Shown here: positions 48,123 through 56,302 of the stretch, one piece after another
How the letters are laid out: every line of letters starts with the position of its first letter
How positions within the stretch are numbered: the stretch's first letter is position 1
Origin: Pelosinus fermentans DSM 17108
GTDB lineage: Bacteria; Bacillota; Negativicutes; DSM-13327
Assembly: GCF_000271485.2 (NCBI RefSeq)
Contig: NZ_AKVN02000001.1
Span: 2,567,501-2,631,500 of the forward strand
Reading direction: 5' to 3'
DNA: 64,000 nt
Program-made: the position numbers and the translations under genes
The notes under the pieces: generated by a model
What the model was told of the DNA's origin: nothing
Database searches by the model: none
What the model saw: the letters and a program-made list of their open reading frames with translations, nothing else

Positions 48123-49664
48123 TCACTCTTTTAGCAACAATAGTTTGTCACTAATGCAAGATAAAATGATAATCGATTGGCGGGTTGCAACTGTTAAACG
48201 ATCATATTCAGATTTTCTGATTAGAAAATAAGAACGCTGGCTTTCTTGAATCAACTCATTAAAATCGGTACCTAGCACGATCTCCTTGCCATAAACGTTG
48301 GTGTAAAAAGCAAAACCAGGACGCAAGAATTTTACTACATACACTGGAGATTTGCCATCGTATTGACGGTTAAATTCTTGAGCAATATTTTTAGTTGTGA
48401 ACATAGGCGCTGCAGCGGGAATCAGTATAGCTGTTAGAACCATGGAAAATAAAGTCATCGATATGATTTTAGTCCAAAAAGCGAGACGAATTTCGTTTTT
48501 CCATCCAAAATACGCTACCAAGGAAGACATTAAAATAAAAATTATGGCGGATATATATATGCCATTTGCCAATAGCGGCATAGCTTTAATCCCTATAAAC
48601 ATAATTCCTATAAATAATGCAGTTAGTATACTTAAACCTATAGACAAACTTGTAAAATGACTTTTATCATGTGATGTCCAAAGACGATCAATATACCAAC
48701 CAACAATCATGGATAATGGTGGGTACATAGGTAAAATATAGGATACCAGCTTTGTTTGAGAAATAGTAAAAAAGGCAAAAATAAATAATGACCAGATATT
48801 TAGAAATAATAGAGTTGAAGAATCATATGTACTTTTCGTTAGAGAACTCCATATGGATTGAATTATGAACCCTGTCCAAGGAAAGAAACCCAGAATAAGA
48901 ACTGGAACATAATAATACCAGAGTACACCCTCAGGATGCTCTGGAGATGTGAACCTTGTAATATTATGAAAGCCAAGAAACGTATCGACAAAAATACTTC
49001 CGTGAATATTATACATCAAGATATACCAAGGTGCAGCTATCGCAGCGTAGAGCAACAATCCCGAGAATATTTTCATACTTTTTAATAAAGCCCAGTTACG
49101 TGTAATAAGTAGATAAAAAAAGATAATTCCTCCAGGAAATAATAATCCAATAGGTCCTTTCGTTAATGTAGCTAATCCAGCGAATAAATATGCAATATAA
49201 TATTTTTTCTCTACAAAAGCTAATAAAGAAGCAGATAGAAAAAAAAGTAAAGTAATATCAGTTACGGCAGCCTTTCCCAAATAAAAAAATTCAATACTGG
49301 TAGCTAATACTAACGCTCCAGCAACACCGGCTCGTTCATTAAATAATCTGCGACCAGATTGGTATACCAGTACTGTACAAGCAACAGCTAATACTGCAGA
49401 GGGAAAGCGAGCAGCAAATTCATTCATACCAAAAAGTTTATAAGAGGCAGCTACTAACCAATAATACATGGGAGGCTTATCATACCAATACTCCCCATAA
49501 ATACGAGGGGAAAGAAATTCATTAAAGCTAAACATTTCTTTAGGCGTTTCTGCATATACAGGTTCATCAGGATCTAACAAAGGGATTCCGCCCAAATTAA
49601 AAAAAACGATTAATAATGTAATTATAGCCACCAGCCAAAAACCAGTTTCTAACTTTTTAAACAT
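48123..49664 (-). CDS. GT83 (ArnT-like) integral-membrane glycosyltransferase
   Basis: 513-aa GT-C fold transferase that would use a polyprenyl-phosphate sugar donor and act on the outer face of the inner membrane. The family's acidic motif DPDEPVYAE is at 31-39, followed by WYDKPPMYYWLVAASYKLFG and RFPSAV. About 11-12 hydrophobic segments and a soluble C-terminal domain follow. In Gram-negatives ArnT adds aminoarabinose to lipid A; the acceptor here cannot be told. It is the last gene of a four-gene cluster, 135 bases after the epimerase gene. Confidence 0.85.
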   Translation of the reverse strand: MFKKLETGFWLVAIITLLIVFFNLGGIPLLDPDEPVYAETPKEMFSFNEFLSPRIYGEYWYDKPPMYYWLVAASYKLFGMNEFAARFPSAVLAVACTVLVYQSGRRLFNERAGVAGALVLATSIEFFYLGKAAVTDITLLFFLSASLLAFVEKKYYIAYLFAGLATLTKGPIGLLFPGGIIFFYLLITRNWALLKSMKIFSGLLLYAAIAAPWYILMYNIHGSIFVDTFLGFHNITRFTSPEHPEGVLWYYYVPVLILGFFPWTGFIIQSIWSSLTKSTYDSSTLLFLNIWSLFIFAFFTISQTKLVSYILPMYPPLSMIVGWYIDRLWTSHDKSHFTSLSIGLSILTALFIGIMFIGIKAMPLLANGIYISAIIFILMSSLVAYFGWKNEIRLAFWTKIISMTLFSMVLTAILIPAAAPMFTTKNIAQEFNRQYDGKSPVYVVKFLRPGFAFYTNVYGKEIVLGTDFNELIQESQRSYFLIRKSEYDRLTVATRQSIIILSCISDKLLLLKE

Positions 49665-49799
49665 TTGGTCCGCAACCTCCGAAAGTTGAATTAATTAGAT
49701 GAATAGGATTTATAACAGCAATGGATATATTATTACTTAACAACGCTGGTCATGTATTTGCGTGTTAATAATAATATATCCCAAAGAAAAATTTAAGGT

Positions 49800-50711
49800 T
49801 TAGATGAGGGAGTGATATGTTTTGGCTAATCCCTCTAAAAGCATCATATGTGGTTGCCAGTCTAAATTTTTCCGTGCTGTGGCATTTGATAAAGAAGATT
49901 TATAAATATCGCCTTCACGTTTTTCATTATAGTTTCTCACTACCATCTTACCAGCGACATTTCCCATATAATCGATTAACATATTAACACTTGTTTCTGT
50001 TTGTGTACTAATATTGCATATTTTGTTAGCATGATCGACTAATAATGATTGATAATTAGCATTGGCGACATCTCCAACGTAAATAAAATCTCTTGTCTGG
50101 CTGCCGTCACCAAAAATCAAGACTGGTTGATCTTGACGAATCTTGCGAGCGAAAATACTAATAACACCACCCTCGCCCCCGTCACCTTGACGGTCTCCGT
50201 ATACATTAGCATACCGTAATATCATATAATCAAGACCATAGACTTCCTTATATAATGACAAATAATTTTCACAGGTTAACTTGCTCAATCCATAAAAAGA
50301 AGTAGGTGCTTTTGGACTTGTTTCCACTACAGGTAGTGCTGTTACATTGCCGTACACTGCGGCTGTAGAAGAAAAAATAATACGCTTTACATTCGCTTTT
50401 CGGCATGCTTCTAAAATATTTACAGTACCTAATATATTTATATCACAATCATAGTCTGGCATTTCTAACGATTTATGTACCATAGTCTGAGCAGCAAGAT
50501 GAATTACAAAATCAAATTTTTCAGTCATAAATAGACTAAAAATTTCATCATTACGAATATCTAACTGAATAAATGTAGCGGCCGGATTGATGTTTTCCCT
50601 TAATCCAGTACTCAAATTATCAATAATCACTACCTGACATTTTTCTTGTATTAATTTATCAACAACATGTGAGCCGATAAAACCAGCTCCGCCAGTTACT
50701 AATACTTTCAC
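49800..50711 (-). CDS. NAD-dependent epimerase/dehydratase (UDP-glucose 4-epimerase-like)
   Basis: 303-aa extended short-chain dehydrogenase acting on a nucleotide sugar. GGAGFIGSHV at 7-16 binds NAD; catalytic Tyr140 and Lys144 are in SFYGLSK; HLAAQ is near 71. It is shorter than classical GalE (about 330) and resembles the WbpP/GalE-like group. It lies 12 bases after the membrane-protein gene, in the same operon. The exact sugar is unknown. Confidence 0.85.
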   Translation of the reverse strand: MKVLVTGGAGFIGSHVVDKLIQEKCQVVIIDNLSTGLRENINPAATFIQLDIRNDEIFSLFMTEKFDFVIHLAAQTMVHKSLEMPDYDCDINILGTVNILEACRKANVKRIIFSSTAAVYGNVTALPVVETSPKAPTSFYGLSKLTCENYLSLYKEVYGLDYMILRYANVYGDRQGDGGEGGVISIFARKIRQDQPVLIFGDGSQTRDFIYVGDVANANYQSLLVDHANKICNISTQTETSVNMLIDYMGNVAGKMVVRNYNEKREGDIYKSSLSNATARKNLDWQPHMMLLEGLAKTYHSLI

Positions 50712-50723
50712 TCTACATTCCTC

Positions 50724-51707
50724 CTATTTAACATGATTGGCTAAAAATCTATGTCCAAACACTTTAATGGTAAAATATAAACCAATAACAAAGGGGAGAT
50801 ACTCGACAATAATTCGCCAGGCTACAGCCACTATCCCTACAGTTCCTGATGGTAGAAAGCCACTAAATAAAAGAACAAATCCGCCTTCAGCAATACCAGA
50901 TCCTCCTGGTGTGGGAGCAAAGTAAAGTAAAATGTTTAACAAAATCATCCTCCCCATAATTTGGGGGATATTAACTGTTATGCCCATTCCCATAAACAAT
51001 ATTGGTACAACACTATATAAAGCTAGTAAACTGACAGCTGATTCAATAAATACTTTCCCCATGCTTAAAGGGGAAGATGATAGCATGAATACAGCACCTC
51101 TAACGTCACGATAGAGAAGAAAAATCCGACGACGATTCCGATGACTAAATTTCTTTGTAAGTGCCACTAACCAATAGTAAGGCAAACTAGTACGAAATAA
51201 CCAAATCAAACCTAGAATAATGGCAATAAGTGAGGCAAAACAAATTGTAAGGATATCATCTGAAAGACCTGGCATAATCTCTGGATCATAATAAAAAATA
51301 ACTGGTAGGCAAAGCACTAAAAAAATAATAGATAACAATGTTCTAACAACTATTAATACAGTCGCTTTACCAGTAGGTACTCCTGCTTTTCGCAAAAACA
51401 TGACCTGCGCTACTGCACCACCTGCAGCTCCAGGCGTTAGGAGAGCCAAAAAATAATTTCCAAAGACAACATGAACAGCTTCAATCAGACGAATCTTTTC
51501 CCCTGAAATGGATACAAGATGCATAAGACGAATTCCATCAAAGTATAAACCGATTATTAAGAAAACAAAAGCTAAAGCTAAAGACCAAGGCTGAAAACTA
51601 TCAAGGTGGCGTAAGGTATGAATATCAACAGTAAAATAGATTACAATGCTGGAAATACTACCTACGAACAGTAATAAGAGAATCAGCCGTTGATAAAACT
51701 TAATCAT
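50724..51707 (-). CDS. LPG-synthase-TM/UPF0104 family membrane protein, possible flippase
   Basis: 327 aa with about eight membrane spans and no soluble domain. It matches the transmembrane part of lysylphosphatidylglycerol synthase and the AglD/HpnL-like UPF0104 group (HLVSISGEKIRLIEAVHVVFGNYF, TPGAAGGAVAQVMFLRKAGV, PTPGGSGIAEGGFVLLF). Such proteins are often found with envelope lipid and glycan genes and have been proposed as flippases. Here it lies between a deacetylase (8-base overlap) and an epimerase. Confidence 0.8.
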   Translation of the reverse strand: MIKFYQRLILLLLFVGSISSIVIYFTVDIHTLRHLDSFQPWSLALAFVFLIIGLYFDGIRLMHLVSISGEKIRLIEAVHVVFGNYFLALLTPGAAGGAVAQVMFLRKAGVPTGKATVLIVVRTLLSIIFLVLCLPVIFYYDPEIMPGLSDDILTICFASLIAIILGLIWLFRTSLPYYWLVALTKKFSHRNRRRIFLLYRDVRGAVFMLSSSPLSMGKVFIESAVSLLALYSVVPILFMGMGITVNIPQIMGRMILLNILLYFAPTPGGSGIAEGGFVLLFSGFLPSGTVGIVAVAWRIIVEYLPFVIGLYFTIKVFGHRFLANHVK

Positions 51708-52554
51708 TTTCTAACTCCCTAAAAGAAATTAATTGTATATGGTGGTCCATGATATATTGAGAGATTTCTGGGCTGGTTACTGAATGTAATTCAGCTTGCC
51801 AGTGATAATTCCAGTTATACATTTTTTGCAAAATAGAATCGTTCGTTCCTGGGTGAATCATAATTTCCGAGGTACCTTCTGGTAAAGATGATAATATGCG
51901 TAATAAATACTCCTCATGCATATGTCCTCCAGCTAACATTCCAAAAAAGTGTTCAGTGGCAGAAAATCTGTGCTTTTGTATCTTCCGCCGTGCTATTTCG
52001 GCTAAAAACGTTAGACCTCCACGTGCTATAATTCGTGCTGTTTGGAATGGATATCCACCTGAAAATAAATAAGGCTCAGCAGGAATACGTATTTTTTTTA
52101 TACCAAAACTTTTAGCAATGTCGATTGTAATATCAATGATCCCAGGTACAATATGCATATGTTGATGACTATCCAGATGAGTAATCGCTATTCCAGAGTC
52201 CAATACTTTCTGTACCTGGGCAGTAAATTCTTTATGAATGTCATTAAGCTTTATCTTTCCTAAACAATAACGTCGTAAGAACTCAGAGTAATGAAGTGAT
52301 AAACATCCTTCACTATTCACTAAAGAGGGTATCGTCTGAGGATCACAAAGTGGTGTTTCACCTACTAATGTTAAGTGTATACCAATTCCTAATTCTTTAT
52401 TAACTGAAGCTAGTGTTATAGCATGATCAAAAGCACTACCTGAGGGCATAATGGTTGTGCTGGTAATGATTCCATTTAGATGTCCTTGAATAATGCCTAC
52501 GTTTACCATTTCATTAATGCCAAAATCATCAGCATTTATGATTAATTGTCGCAT
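51700..52554 (-). CDS. ChbG/HpnK family deacetylase (YdjC-like)
   Basis: 284-aa carbohydrate deacetylase. Metal-binding NADDFGIN at 7-14 and HLDSHQHMHIVPG near 119-131 are typical of the YdjC/ChbG/HpnK family. The ATG at 52554 has AAGGAG 9 bases upstream; the frame is open 15 codons further, without support. First gene of the cluster, with a predicted promoter at 52590-52618. By analogy with ArnD it could deacylate a lipid-linked sugar; that is inference. Confidence 0.85.
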   Translation of the reverse strand: MRQLIINADDFGINEMVNVGIIQGHLNGIITSTTIMPSGSAFDHAITLASVNKELGIGIHLTLVGETPLCDPQTIPSLVNSEGCLSLHYSEFLRRYCLGKIKLNDIHKEFTAQVQKVLDSGIAITHLDSHQHMHIVPGIIDITIDIAKSFGIKKIRIPAEPYLFSGGYPFQTARIIARGGLTFLAEIARRKIQKHRFSATEHFFGMLAGGHMHEEYLLRILSSLPEGTSEIMIHPGTNDSILQKMYNWNYHWQAELHSVTSPEISQYIMDHHIQLISFRELEND

Positions 52555-52589: not shown

Positions 52590-52618
52590 ATGGTAGCATG
52601 TATAAGGAGATATGGCAA
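52590..52618 (-). promoter_or_regulatory. Predicted promoter of the envelope-sugar cluster
   Basis: TTGCCA (52613-52618), 17 bases, extended -10 TGCTACCAT (TACCAT at 52590-52595) on the minus strand, about 36 bases before the ATG. Confidence 0.55.
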
Positions 52619-52663: not shown

Positions 52664-52684
52664 AGGAGCCTAGATTAGGCTCCT
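52664..52684 (-). terminator. Terminator after queC-folE2
   Basis: Perfect 9-bp stem AGGAGCCTA/TAGGCTCCT with a 3-base loop, followed by TCCTCTTTG on the minus strand. It lies 8 bases past the folE2 stop. Confidence 0.65.
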
Positions 52685-53484: not shown

Positions 53485-54165
53485 TTATTCACTCCTAGTT
53501 CTATAAATAATAGGATCTATTGTACCTGCTTCAGCAAAACCTTTTAAACGCAAAAGGCAGCTATCACATTCTCCGCAGGCAACTGGCTCTCCATTATAAC
53601 AACTGGTAGTAAATTGAAGAGGAGCATCTAGATTCTTACCCAACAAAACAATATCTTTCTTAGTTAATTGCAATAAGGGAGTTTCTATTACTATCTTTCG
53701 ATGATCCTGTACCCCAGCTTTTGTACTATAATCGGCAACTTGTTGAAAGAGATTGATAAATTCAGGTCGACAATCAGGATAACCTGAATAATCAAGAGCA
53801 TTCACACCAATAAAAATTTTATCTGCTCCCGTCACCTCTGCATAACCTAAAGCATAGCTTAAAAAAATCAAATTCCTAGCAGGCACATACGTTACAGGAA
53901 TTTGATGGCTATCGATATTACCAGTAGGTACTGTCAATTGCCCATCGGTTAAAGCACTGCCGCCGATTACATTCATGTTGGTTTCAATAATAATATGTTT
54001 AGTGACATTATAATATTGAGCTACACTTTCAGCGCTTTCTAATTCACGAGCATGACGCTGATTATAATTAAAGCTGATAGGAAAAAGCTCATAACCTTTA
54101 CTATGGGCTACAGCCATGCATACTGTAGAATCTAATCCACCTGACAATAATACAACTGCTTTCAT
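53485..54165 (-). CDS. queC: 7-cyano-7-deazaguanine synthase
   Basis: Makes preQ0 from 7-carboxy-7-deazaguanine. 226 aa. ATP-pyrophosphatase loop SGGLDST is at 8-14, and the four zinc cysteines are in TSCYNGEPVACGECDSCLLR near the end. The ATG at 54165 has AGGAG 11 bases upstream; the open frame extends 13 codons more. It is coupled with folE2. queD and queE are not in the window. I looked for a preQ1 riboswitch upstream and saw none. Confidence 0.94.
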   Translation of the reverse strand: MKAVVLLSGGLDSTVCMAVAHSKGYELFPISFNYNQRHARELESAESVAQYYNVTKHIIIETNMNVIGGSALTDGQLTVPTGNIDSHQIPVTYVPARNLIFLSYALGYAEVTGADKIFIGVNALDYSGYPDCRPEFINLFQQVADYSTKAGVQDHRKIVIETPLLQLTKKDIVLLGKNLDAPLQFTTSCYNGEPVACGECDSCLLRLKGFAEAGTIDPIIYRTRSE

Positions 54166-54318
54166 GCTAAGAAACACTCCTAAGTTTATATAAATTTTAT
54201 TCAAATGCTTAGACTATAGTTATTTTATCCGATGATCAAGATACTCTATACTCGTCTCAACAAATGCAACTGGCAAGAAGGATTTTCTTCCCAAAGTACT
54301 CCTCACATGAAGAAAGAG

Positions 54319-55545
54319 TTAATTTTCTGGAATCGCGTCTTTTTTGATAATAATAGATGCTGTTTCTAAAGCAGTTTGCTGTACTTTTTTCAGAGGAATT
54401 TTATATTCGTCTGCTATGATTTTACAATCTTCATATTCAGGAGTTATACTGCATATTTTTCCTTCATATGCACTTACTTTCACTTTGACTTTACCCCAGG
54501 GGAGTTTCACATCGATTATTTCCCGCATCGCAATTTTTCTTTCAGTTTCATAAAATCGTAATCCAATAGTAGATGTTTGCTCAAAGATGAGCTTAATAAC
54601 TTGATCCAACATGGAATCATTTACTAATACAGACAGCATCGTGGCAGAACGATTCTTTTTCATAATAATTGGGGTGAGCCAAACATCAAAAACATCCATA
54701 TTAAGCAATTTTTCCATAACATATGGATAAATCTGAGGATTTAAATCGTCAATATTGGCCTCCACAACGAAAGCTTTTGTTATTATACGTTCTTCTTTTA
54801 TTTCGCCCACATGCATTCTTAGCACGTTAGGAATTTCTAAATCCCATGTTCCTGCTCCATAGCCAATTGTTTCACTAAGAAAATTAGCTGGCATATTTCC
54901 ATGTCCAGCACTTAGTGCTGCAATTACAGCAGCTCCTGTAGGTGTTACTAATTCTTTACTCATTTCTCCGTTATAGTATGGGATGTTCTTAAGTAACTCT
55001 GCAGTAGCTGGTGCTGGTATTGGCATTAGCCCATGGGCGCATTTTATAAATCCTTTGCCAACTTGTAATGCAGAAGTATAAATAGCCTGAATTCCTAAAT
55101 AGTCTAAACCAATCGCTGTACCTACAATATCAACAATTGAATCAACAGCTCCTACTTCGTGAAAGTGAATTTCTTCTACTCCTACCCCATGTACCTTAGC
55201 CTCTGCTTGAGCTAATAATAAGAAAATTTTCTTACTATCAGTTTTAATTTTAGAGGATAATTGAGAATCATCAATGATCTGAAAGACATCTGATAGATGA
55301 CGATGATGATGATGGCCATGGTGATGATCAGCATCATGATGATCGTCATCATTGAGTTTTACATCTACATAAATGGCACTAATACCACATTTGTTTACTT
55401 TTGTAACAATTAAATCATAACCATGAACAGGCAAGAGTGATAAATTTTTTCTTAATACTTCCTCTGGTAATCCTACATGTAATAATGCTCCTAATAACAT
55501 GTTACCACTAATACCGGAAAAACAATCTAAATAAAGAGTTTTCAT
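54319..55545 (-). CDS. larC: Nickel-pincer cofactor biosynthesis protein LarC
   Basis: CTP-dependent nickel insertase that completes the nickel-pincer nucleotide of lactate racemase (LarA) and relatives. 408 aa in one frame. The start LDCFSGISGNMLLGAL is typical, and a His/Asp-rich nickel-binding stretch lies at 67-83. VEEIHFHEVGAVDSIVDIVG and the late C-terminal domain are intact. In some species larC is split by a frameshift; here it is continuous. It starts 4 bases after larB. Confidence 0.93.
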   Translation of the reverse strand: MKTLYLDCFSGISGNMLLGALLHVGLPEEVLRKNLSLLPVHGYDLIVTKVNKCGISAIYVDVKLNDDDHHDADHHHGHHHHRHLSDVFQIIDDSQLSSKIKTDSKKIFLLLAQAEAKVHGVGVEEIHFHEVGAVDSIVDIVGTAIGLDYLGIQAIYTSALQVGKGFIKCAHGLMPIPAPATAELLKNIPYYNGEMSKELVTPTGAAVIAALSAGHGNMPANFLSETIGYGAGTWDLEIPNVLRMHVGEIKEERIITKAFVVEANIDDLNPQIYPYVMEKLLNMDVFDVWLTPIIMKKNRSATMLSVLVNDSMLDQVIKLIFEQTSTIGLRFYETERKIAMREIIDVKLPWGKVKVKVSAYEGKICSITPEYEDCKIIADEYKIPLKKVQQTALETASIIIKKDAIPEN

Positions 55546-55549
55546 GATA

Positions 55550-56302
55550 TCACCTCATTTTATTAATAATACTCGCTAATCGTCCTGCTCCAAACCCATT
55601 GTCAATATTTACCACTGATATTCCGGCTGCACAGCTATTTAACATACTTAATAAAGCTGCTAACCCATTAAAACTAGCACCGTAGCCCACACTAGTAGGC
55701 AATGCAATTACTGGTTTAGCAACCATACCTCCAACGACACTAGCCAAGGCGCCTTCCATACCTGCAGCTACAATAATTACATTAGCATTTTGAATAATAT
55801 CTTGATGCGCAAATAATCGGTGGATACCAGCAACGCCAACATCATAAACGCGCTCTACTTTATTTCCCATGATTTCTGCTGTAACAGCGGCCTCTTCAGC
55901 GACAGGTATGTCGCTTGTACCCGCAGACATAACGAGAACAAATCGTTGACTATCAGGTTCTATCGTATCACGTTTAACATAAATTATTTTAGGTACTTCG
56001 TAGAACTGTGCTTCTGGCAGTACAGCCTTTACCACTGCATACATAGCTTCAGTTGCTCGAGTAGCTAATATACTATTGTTATGTACAGCTAAACTTTTCA
56101 TAATTGTTGCTACTTGTTCTGCTGTTTTCCCTTGACAAAATATCACTTCAGGGAATCCCTGTCTGATCATACGATGATGATCAATTTTTACAAAGTCTAA
56201 ATCTTCATATGGTAAAATTTTAAGCTTATCTATTGCTTCATCCAAAGACAATCGACTTGCTTGAAAGTCTTGCAATACATTGCGTAAATTATTAATATCC
56301 AT
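55550..56302 (-). CDS. larB: Nickel-pincer cofactor biosynthesis protein LarB
   Basis: Carboxylates and hydrolyses nicotinic acid adenine dinucleotide, the first step to the nickel-pincer cofactor. 250 aa. N-terminal helical region and C-terminal PurE/AIR-carboxylase-like domain with SAGTSDIPVAEEAAVTAE and GMEGALASVVGG. AAGGAG precedes the ATG. larC follows; larE and a LarA-type enzyme are not in the window. Confidence 0.93.
   Translation of the reverse strand: MDINNLRNVLQDFQASRLSLDEAIDKLKILPYEDLDFVKIDHHRMIRQGFPEVIFCQGKTAEQVATIMKSLAVHNNSILATRATEAMYAVVKAVLPEAQFYEVPKIIYVKRDTIEPDSQRFVLVMSAGTSDIPVAEEAAVTAEIMGNKVERVYDVGVAGIHRLFAHQDIIQNANVIIVAAGMEGALASVVGGMVAKPVIALPTSVGYGASFNGLAALLSMLNSCAAGISVVNIDNGFGAGRLASIINKMR

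Follow-up and report, generated by a model that had tools for sequence, protein, structure and literature searches.

We analysed a stretch of 64,000 nucleotides from Pelosinus fermentans DSM 17108 (positions 2,567,501 to 2,631,500 of contig NZ_AKVN02000001.1, assembly GCF_000271485.2; hereafter the window), in which four genes of the minus strand fill positions 52554-48123. In the direction of transcription they encode a YdjC-family deacetylase, a membrane protein of the LPG_synthase_TM/UPF0104 family (LPG_TM), a GalE-like epimerase of the short-chain dehydrogenase/reductase (SDR) type and an ArnT-like membrane glycosyltransferase (Table 1). We consider it somewhat probable that these genes supply the greater part of a lipid-carrier pathway by which the outer envelope, and there most likely lipid A or lipopolysaccharide (LPS), is decorated with a cationic amino-hexose. 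All four genes are intact, without internal stops, and the content and order given in the initial annotation were found as described, with Pfam scores far above the cut-offs. Their grouping is conserved in relatives and their catalytic residues are kept; a glycosyltransferase of family GT2 is encoded in trans and co-occurs with YdjC, and a paralogous cluster in the same genome adds a GT2 and a two-component system. We regard the run as a conserved candidate operon for aminosugar decoration that follows a known plan, though its arrangement and lineage are new, and that is incomplete on its own; the earlier interpretation as a whole is partly supported. The source genome comprises 5.03 Mb in 2 contigs, and positions below are window coordinates unless prefixed by C1 (contig) or an L-number (locus).

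We infer the sugar, the order of the reactions, the flippase and the lipid A acceptor as follows. The epimerase would make or balance uridine diphosphate (UDP)-N-acetylgalactosamine (GalNAc) and UDP-N-acetylglucosamine (GlcNAc), and a GtrB/ArnC-type GT2, encoded in trans, would load the N-acetylhexosamine onto undecaprenyl phosphate (Und-P). Still on the cytoplasmic side, the YdjC protein would remove the acetyl group; the resulting lipid-linked aminosugar would be flipped, possibly by the UPF0104 protein, and the ArnT-like enzyme would transfer galactosamine (GalN) or glucosamine (GlcN) to the acceptor, most likely lipid A. Lipid A is favoured because the sole match of the transferase in the PDB is ArnT, because LpxC is encoded in the genome and because lipid A modification in Francisella and Acinetobacter involves a YdjC deacetylase. 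Of 300 genomes from the class, 290 have LpxC, that of P. fermentans DSM 17108 included, so that an LPS target exists; this and the conserved ArnT-type residues strengthen the earlier suggestion that LPS could be the target in this diderm organism. Title searches of an open-licence library gave no work on the lipid A of Pelosinus or of Negativicutes, and those aimed at Pectinatus and Veillonella contributed nothing to the present analysis.

The YdjC protein scores 238 bits against the Pfam YdjC model (cut-off 29.7), and its matches in the PDB are four YdjC/UPF0249 proteins, one of them a chitooligosaccharide deacetylase. Residues D9, D10, H60, D128, H130, H132, H134 and H234 are invariant in all 53 aligned rows; here and in the other residue alignments, rows cover at least 70% of the reference, and reference proteins are included, one of which duplicates the copy from the second cluster (L007). 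Two more specific functions were rejected, namely the hopanoid role of HpnK (TIGR03473, 210 bits vs a cut-off of 232.6) and the chitobiose role of ChbG, the chitin disaccharide deacetylase (NF002559, 170 bits vs 227). NaxD, a deacetylase of the YdjC superfamily, is described for Francisella and Acinetobacter, where the Und-P-linked GalNAc on which it acts becomes the GalN destined for lipid A (PMC11279074, PMC12330716). By analogy, we propose a NaxD-like role for the Pelosinus protein, as a putative N-deacetylase of lipid-carrier-linked N-acetylhexosamine.

The epimerase matches the Pfam Epimerase model with 218 bits (cut-off 20.9) and the galE equivalog with 215 bits, below the cut-off of 262, and its closest relatives in the PDB are annotated as UDP-glucose 4-epimerases. 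The Y140-x3-K144 motif is kept in 38 of 38 rows, and a Ser stands at the position of Tyr299 of Escherichia coli GalE in all 37 rows that have a residue there, the window included. A small residue at this position permits N-acetylated substrates, and the use of UDP-GalNAc is not proven thereby. Judging from its sequence, we propose that this protein may be a UDP-GlcNAc/UDP-GalNAc 4-epimerase.

The ArnT-like protein scores 94 bits against Pfam PMT_2 (cut-off 26.1), and at E<=0.001 ArnT (5ezm/5f15, E 4.6e-40) is the only protein matched in the PDB; against the NCBIfam ArnT equivalog it reaches 147 bits, short of the cut-off of 567. The activity of Burkholderia ArnT is reported to require Y43, K69 and R254 (PMC5377068). 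At the corresponding positions, assigned via motifs and the alignment with 5ezm, Tyr, Lys and Arg are present in 74, 73 and 72 of the 74 ArnT-like rows, respectively, while in a second ArnT-like type (ArnTb) the Asp preceding a conserved Glu is replaced by Val in 25 of 26. We propose that the enzyme takes the aminosugar carried by Und-P and transfers it onto lipid A/LPS.

An ArnC/GtrB-like GT2, i.e. an Und-P glycosyltransferase, is absent from the four-gene run. The genome encodes one at C1:2216132-2217067 (L103:7633-8571), where the neighbours, judged by eye from the list of open reading frames (ORFs), show no obvious partner; it matches the structures of GtrB (E 8e-81) and ArnC (9e-47). A GT2 72% identical to it lies in the second cluster (C1:3156106-3166312, L007), together with YdjC, DedA (VTT domain), LPG_TM, a PAP2-like protein called by eye (sole model match 24 bits), two ArnT-like genes, an OmpR-type regulator and a histidine kinase; EamA, UppP and another PAP2-like gene follow (by eye). 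YdjC, LPG_TM and ArnT of this cluster are 42%, 53% and 46% identical to their counterparts in the window. The initial annotation, which had likened the run to the Arn pathway, was right in outline but overlooked the loading GT2: with that enzyme unlinked and in the second cluster, the run is not self-sufficient.

Clusters of this second type, in which GT2, YdjC and two ArnT-like genes lie beside an OmpR/kinase pair, occur at L007, L063, L085, L118, L122 and L123. Those of the relatives contain an epimerase, with LPG_TM in L063 and L085 and without it in L118, L122 and L123. YdjC also adjoins GT2 elsewhere in some genomes of families f11 and f10 (L114-L117, L121), three of these GT2s being 37-39% identical to the reference. 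Besides the LPG_TM neighbourhoods described below, 30 further stretches (two of them 2 bases long) were picked for having or lacking matches to YdjC, GT2 or ArnT, so that the second clusters are to be read as examples, not frequencies. The second ArnT-like gene of the P. fermentans cluster (L007:8098-9800 = C1:3158097-3159799) is divided between two overlapping ORFs, of 399 and 197 aa, whose reading frames differ, and corresponds to a single ORF of 551 aa in the relative L063; the split reflects either a frameshift or an error in the sequence.

YdjC and GT2 co-occur strongly in the class. At thresholds of E<=1e-38 for YdjC (241 of the 300 genomes) and E<=1e-88 for GT2 (221), 207 genomes have both, 34 YdjC only and 14 GT2 only, while 45 have neither; the odds ratio is 20, with p about 6e-20 in a Fisher test that makes no correction for phylogeny. 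With the 24 genomes of genus g65 left out, the odds ratio is 43 (both 207, YdjC only 14, GT2 only 14, neither 41), and the 41 joint absences fall, by hand count, into 16 genera and 7 families, some of the genomes being incomplete. In searches of 60 genomes, one (G014) retained LPG_TM and SDR but lacked all three of YdjC, GT2 and ArnT.

The initial annotation would have taken a lack of conserved linkage of the four genes in relatives as a refutation; the linkage is conserved. LPG_TM was matched at E<=1e-15 in 212 of the 300 genomes, 59 of which provided 60 neighbourhoods, one or a few per genus; families f3, f8, f22, f25 and f28, with weaker matches, lie outside this sample. YdjC, epimerase and ArnT-like genes are found near LPG_TM on the same strand in 26 of the 60 neighbourhoods, representing 14 of the 20 sampled families. 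The others have YdjC and ArnT (4), SDR and ArnT (1), YdjC only (4), ArnT only (2), SDR only (1) or none of them (22). The median spacing is -8 bp between YdjC and LPG_TM (n=32, 26 overlapping; ORF starts were set at the first start codon, so these overlaps may be overstated), 12 bp between LPG_TM and SDR (n=27) and 16 bp between SDR and ArnT (n=27). The gaps in the window are -8, +12 and +135 bp, and given the last of these we infer, rather than observe, a single transcript covering the four genes. Plasmid records from outside the class were uninformative: YdjC is 27-31% identical among the matches listed (25 of 74), which are mostly annotated as ChbG, and in one Alicyclobacillus record lies near a glycosyltransferase and spore coat genes, while LPG_TM matched 32 records, the one examined (from an alphaproteobacterium) showing it next to a glycosyltransferase.

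The flippase role of the UPF0104 protein is putative and forms the weakest part of the scheme. LPG_TM exceeds the cut-offs of Pfam PF03706 (126 vs 33.4 bits) and of the "flippase-like" model TIGR00374 (72.3 vs 43.2), and scores 51 bits against the model of the GlcN-phosphatidylglycerol (GlcN-PG) flippase, below the cut-off of 320. Its closest named record, from P. fermentans JBW45, is 97% identical. In the comparison with solved flippases (e.g. MprF), a profile search of the PDB based on 11 relatives gave no match at E<=1, and the AlphaFold model, made from an alignment of five close sequences, has a predicted local distance difference test score of 38.6 and is unusable for fold comparison. 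The protein taken earlier for a flippase belongs to a flippase-like family, but LPG_TM follows YdjC only weakly among genomes (see below).

The proposed plan resembles the Und-P-GalN pathway of Francisella and Acinetobacter, in which a YdjC-family deacetylase, an ArnC-like GT2 and an ArnT-like transferase are likewise found. FlmF2 has its place in the galactosamine pathway of Francisella, of which FlmK is the ArnT-like member. FlmF2 is named as an arnC-like glycosyltransferase for Francisella (PMC8149597), and the naxD operon of Acinetobacter is described as being under the control of PmrAB (PMC11279074, PMC12330716), to which the OmpR/kinase pair adjoining the second Pelosinus cluster may be compared. 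Unlike these systems, the Pelosinus operon contains an epimerase and UPF0104, its GT2 is unlinked and its host is a Negativicute.

The Arn pathway, which serves to attach 4-amino-4-deoxy-L-arabinose (Ara4N), employs ArnD as deacetylase and ArnE/F as flippase. It shares with the proposed scheme the polyprenyl-phosphate logic of loading, N-unblocking, flipping and ArnT-like transfer, and its solved ArnC and ArnT are related to the GT2 and the transferase; in contrast, YdjC would stand for ArnD and UPF0104 (putatively) for ArnE/F, and the cut-offs of the ArnT and ArnC models are not reached. The best match to fused ArnA in the genome scores 186 bits against a cut-off of 777 (split ArnA, ArnB and ArnD were not searched for), which leaves the Arn pathway proper unsupported and makes canonical Ara4N unlikely. 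The earlier statement that non-Arn families fill three of the four roles holds relative to Arn only; it describes nothing unprecedented, as NaxD of the YdjC family already acts on carrier-linked GalNAc.

Several observations weigh against the amino-hexose pathway. The YdjC-GT2 test depends on its thresholds, takes no account of phylogeny and includes incomplete genomes; 34 genomes, 20 of them from g65, have YdjC without GT2, and 14 have GT2 without YdjC. The likeness to NaxD, FlmF2 and FlmK is one of family and description, and the regulator of the second cluster scores 166 bits against the PmrA model, below its cut-off of 330. The GT2 scores higher against PgfS (266-273 bits, cut-off 500) than against ArnC (173 bits, cut-off 529), reaching neither cut-off. 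The four-gene grouping is mostly lost or dispersed in family f11, where 20 of 24 neighbourhoods have no YdjC, SDR or ArnT near LPG_TM and the other 4 have YdjC only. Across the 300 genomes LPG_TM is associated weakly with YdjC (both 176, YdjC only 65, LPG_TM only 36, neither 23; odds ratio 1.7, p=0.08; without g65 2.1, p=0.03). With GT2 it shows an association (odds ratio 2.7, p=0.0005) that is gone once g65 is left out (0.9, p=0.86). At the thresholds used, 32 of the 300 genomes contain LPG_TM but neither YdjC nor GT2, and 42 contain both of these but no LPG_TM. YdjC and SDR occur without adjoining LPG_TM at L106, L107 and L132, accompanied by ArnT at L106 and L132. The distribution of LPG_TM argues against its dedication to the aminosugar pathway.

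The lipid-linked aminosugar pathway could also be kept with a different acceptor, a surface protein or another glycan modified in the manner of Pgf-type O-glycosylation, with YdjC adding a deacetylation. PgfS is the best NCBIfam match of the GT2, and in the pgf operon of Streptococcus mutans it is described as accompanied by the epimerase PgfE and two PMT-like membrane proteins, PgfM1 and PgfM2 (PMC5856776), so that a GtrB-type GT2, a GalE-like epimerase and PMT-like membrane transferases are common to both systems; moreover, 13 of the 60 neighbourhoods contain two ArnT-like genes side by side. Yet the GT2 does not reach the PgfS cut-off, the only PDB match of the transferase is ArnT, whose functional residues are kept, and the four pgf genes, as described in the same source, include neither a deacetylase nor UPF0104. 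We find this explanation doubtful.

Two other explanations are less likely. YdjC and UPF0104 could form a module for an aminosugar membrane lipid, the one deacetylating and the other flipping a glycolipid or GlcN-PG, next to an ArnT that serves another function. The gpgSDF genes of Pseudomonas aeruginosa (GlcN-PG; PMC12713373) and the hexSDF genes of C. difficile (aminoglycolipid; PMC10128005) are described as joining a deacetylase to a UPF0104/MprF-like putative flippase, the latter set beside a two-component system, and YdjC-LPG_TM is the tightest pair in our loci (26 of 32 overlap), found without SDR and ArnT in L134 and L136. Those systems, as far as the cited texts describe them, differ in having a glycosyltransferase of the GT4 or monogalactosyldiacylglycerol (MGDG)-synthase-like type, another deacetylase annotation and no ArnT, whereas YdjC here co-occurs and clusters with a GT2 of the polyprenyl-phosphate type; since LPG_TM also tracks YdjC weakly across the class and misses the cut-off of the GlcN-PG flippase, we hold such a module to be quite improbable. 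Still less probable is the absence of any single pathway, the four being separate housekeeping genes of the envelope that merely share a conserved island (LarBC-QueC-FolE2-...-CbiD). The island order is indeed conserved, and LPG_TM stays there without YdjC, SDR and ArnT in most f11 neighbourhoods; against this, YdjC, GT2 and ArnT (and SDR in 5 of 6) recur together in the second clusters with their two-component systems, and YdjC and GT2 are jointly absent across genomes.

The run is flanked by folE2 upstream and by a cobalamin riboswitch and cbiD downstream, the riboswitch marking the downstream end of the four-gene unit. An own promoter had been predicted for it. Between 46000 and 54500, promoter-like sites number 38 against 33.8 +/- 5.1 in shuffles, which is the chance level, and terminator-like sites 11 against 5.0 +/- 2.3, which is above it. 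In an alignment of the upstream regions of 7 Pelosinus sequences, the window included, the -35 element of the site preceding YdjC is kept in all 7 and the -10 element in 6, L042 having one change there. All 7 also keep the stem of the hairpin, whereas the sequence that separates it from the promoter is divergent. By the scan alone the predicted promoter does no better than chance, but its elements are conserved in Pelosinus.

Table 1. The four-gene run of P. fermentans and the elements at its borders (window coordinates).
Feature	Position	Strand	Remarks
Terminator-like hairpin, 9 bp stem	52664..52684	-	Terminator scan; separates the unit from folE2
Promoter-like site TTGCCA-17-TACCAT, TG before -10	52590..52618	-	Promoter scan; upstream of YdjC
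YdjC/HpnK-family N-deacetylase (predicted), 284 aa	52554-51700	-	Pfam YdjC; ORF extendable to 52599
LPG_synthase_TM/UPF0104 membrane protein, 327 aa	51707-50724	-	Putative lipid-sugar flippase; 8 bp overlap with ydjC
GalE-like SDR epimerase, 303 aa	50711-49800	-	Pfam Epimerase; GTG start
ArnT-like PMT_2 (GT83-type) membrane glycosyltransferase, 513 aa	49664-48123	-	Pfam PMT_2
Cobalamin riboswitch	47977-47804	-	Rfam RF00174, 104 bits; precedes cbiD

Upstream of folE2, at 53485-56302 on the minus strand, lie genes that by eye resemble queC, larC and larB, and this island around the four-gene run is kept in many relatives. In family f11 the LPG_TM gene directly follows folE2 in 15 of 24 neighbourhoods, and in 10 of the 24 its immediate neighbours are folE2 and cbiD, without sugar genes (e.g. 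L064, L065, L066); some f11 genomes keep the UPF0104 gene where YdjC and GT2 were not found. A DNA methyltransferase of 650 aa (L046:6097-8049; Eco57I and TaqI_C domains, L046 alone having been scanned) lies between folE2 and the ydjC unit; ORFs of similar size occupy this position in several other loci, and none is present in the window or in L043-L045. In L048, genes for pyruvate:ferredoxin oxidoreductase subunits follow the ydjC unit.

A more far-reaching proposal would combine two claims: that UPF0104 flips only the deacetylated, cationic Und-P-amino-hexose delivered by YdjC, which would make deacetylation the gate to export, and that aminosugar decoration of LPS is ancestral in Negativicutes, where it has been kept both as a stand-alone cluster served by a GT2 in trans and as a cluster tied to a two-component system. 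Taken together, we regard these two claims as unlikely. If the amino-hexose pathway itself is real, a decoration conferring positive charge on the envelope would be widespread in diderm Firmicutes, built on the plan of galactosamine-lipid A and not on that of Arn. The run would then also supply definite candidates for steps not yet assigned in other systems, such as the transfer of GalN to lipid A in Acinetobacter, ascribed in a 2025 paper to "an unknown enzyme" (PMC12330716), and the flipping step, for which UPF0104 would be a testable candidate.

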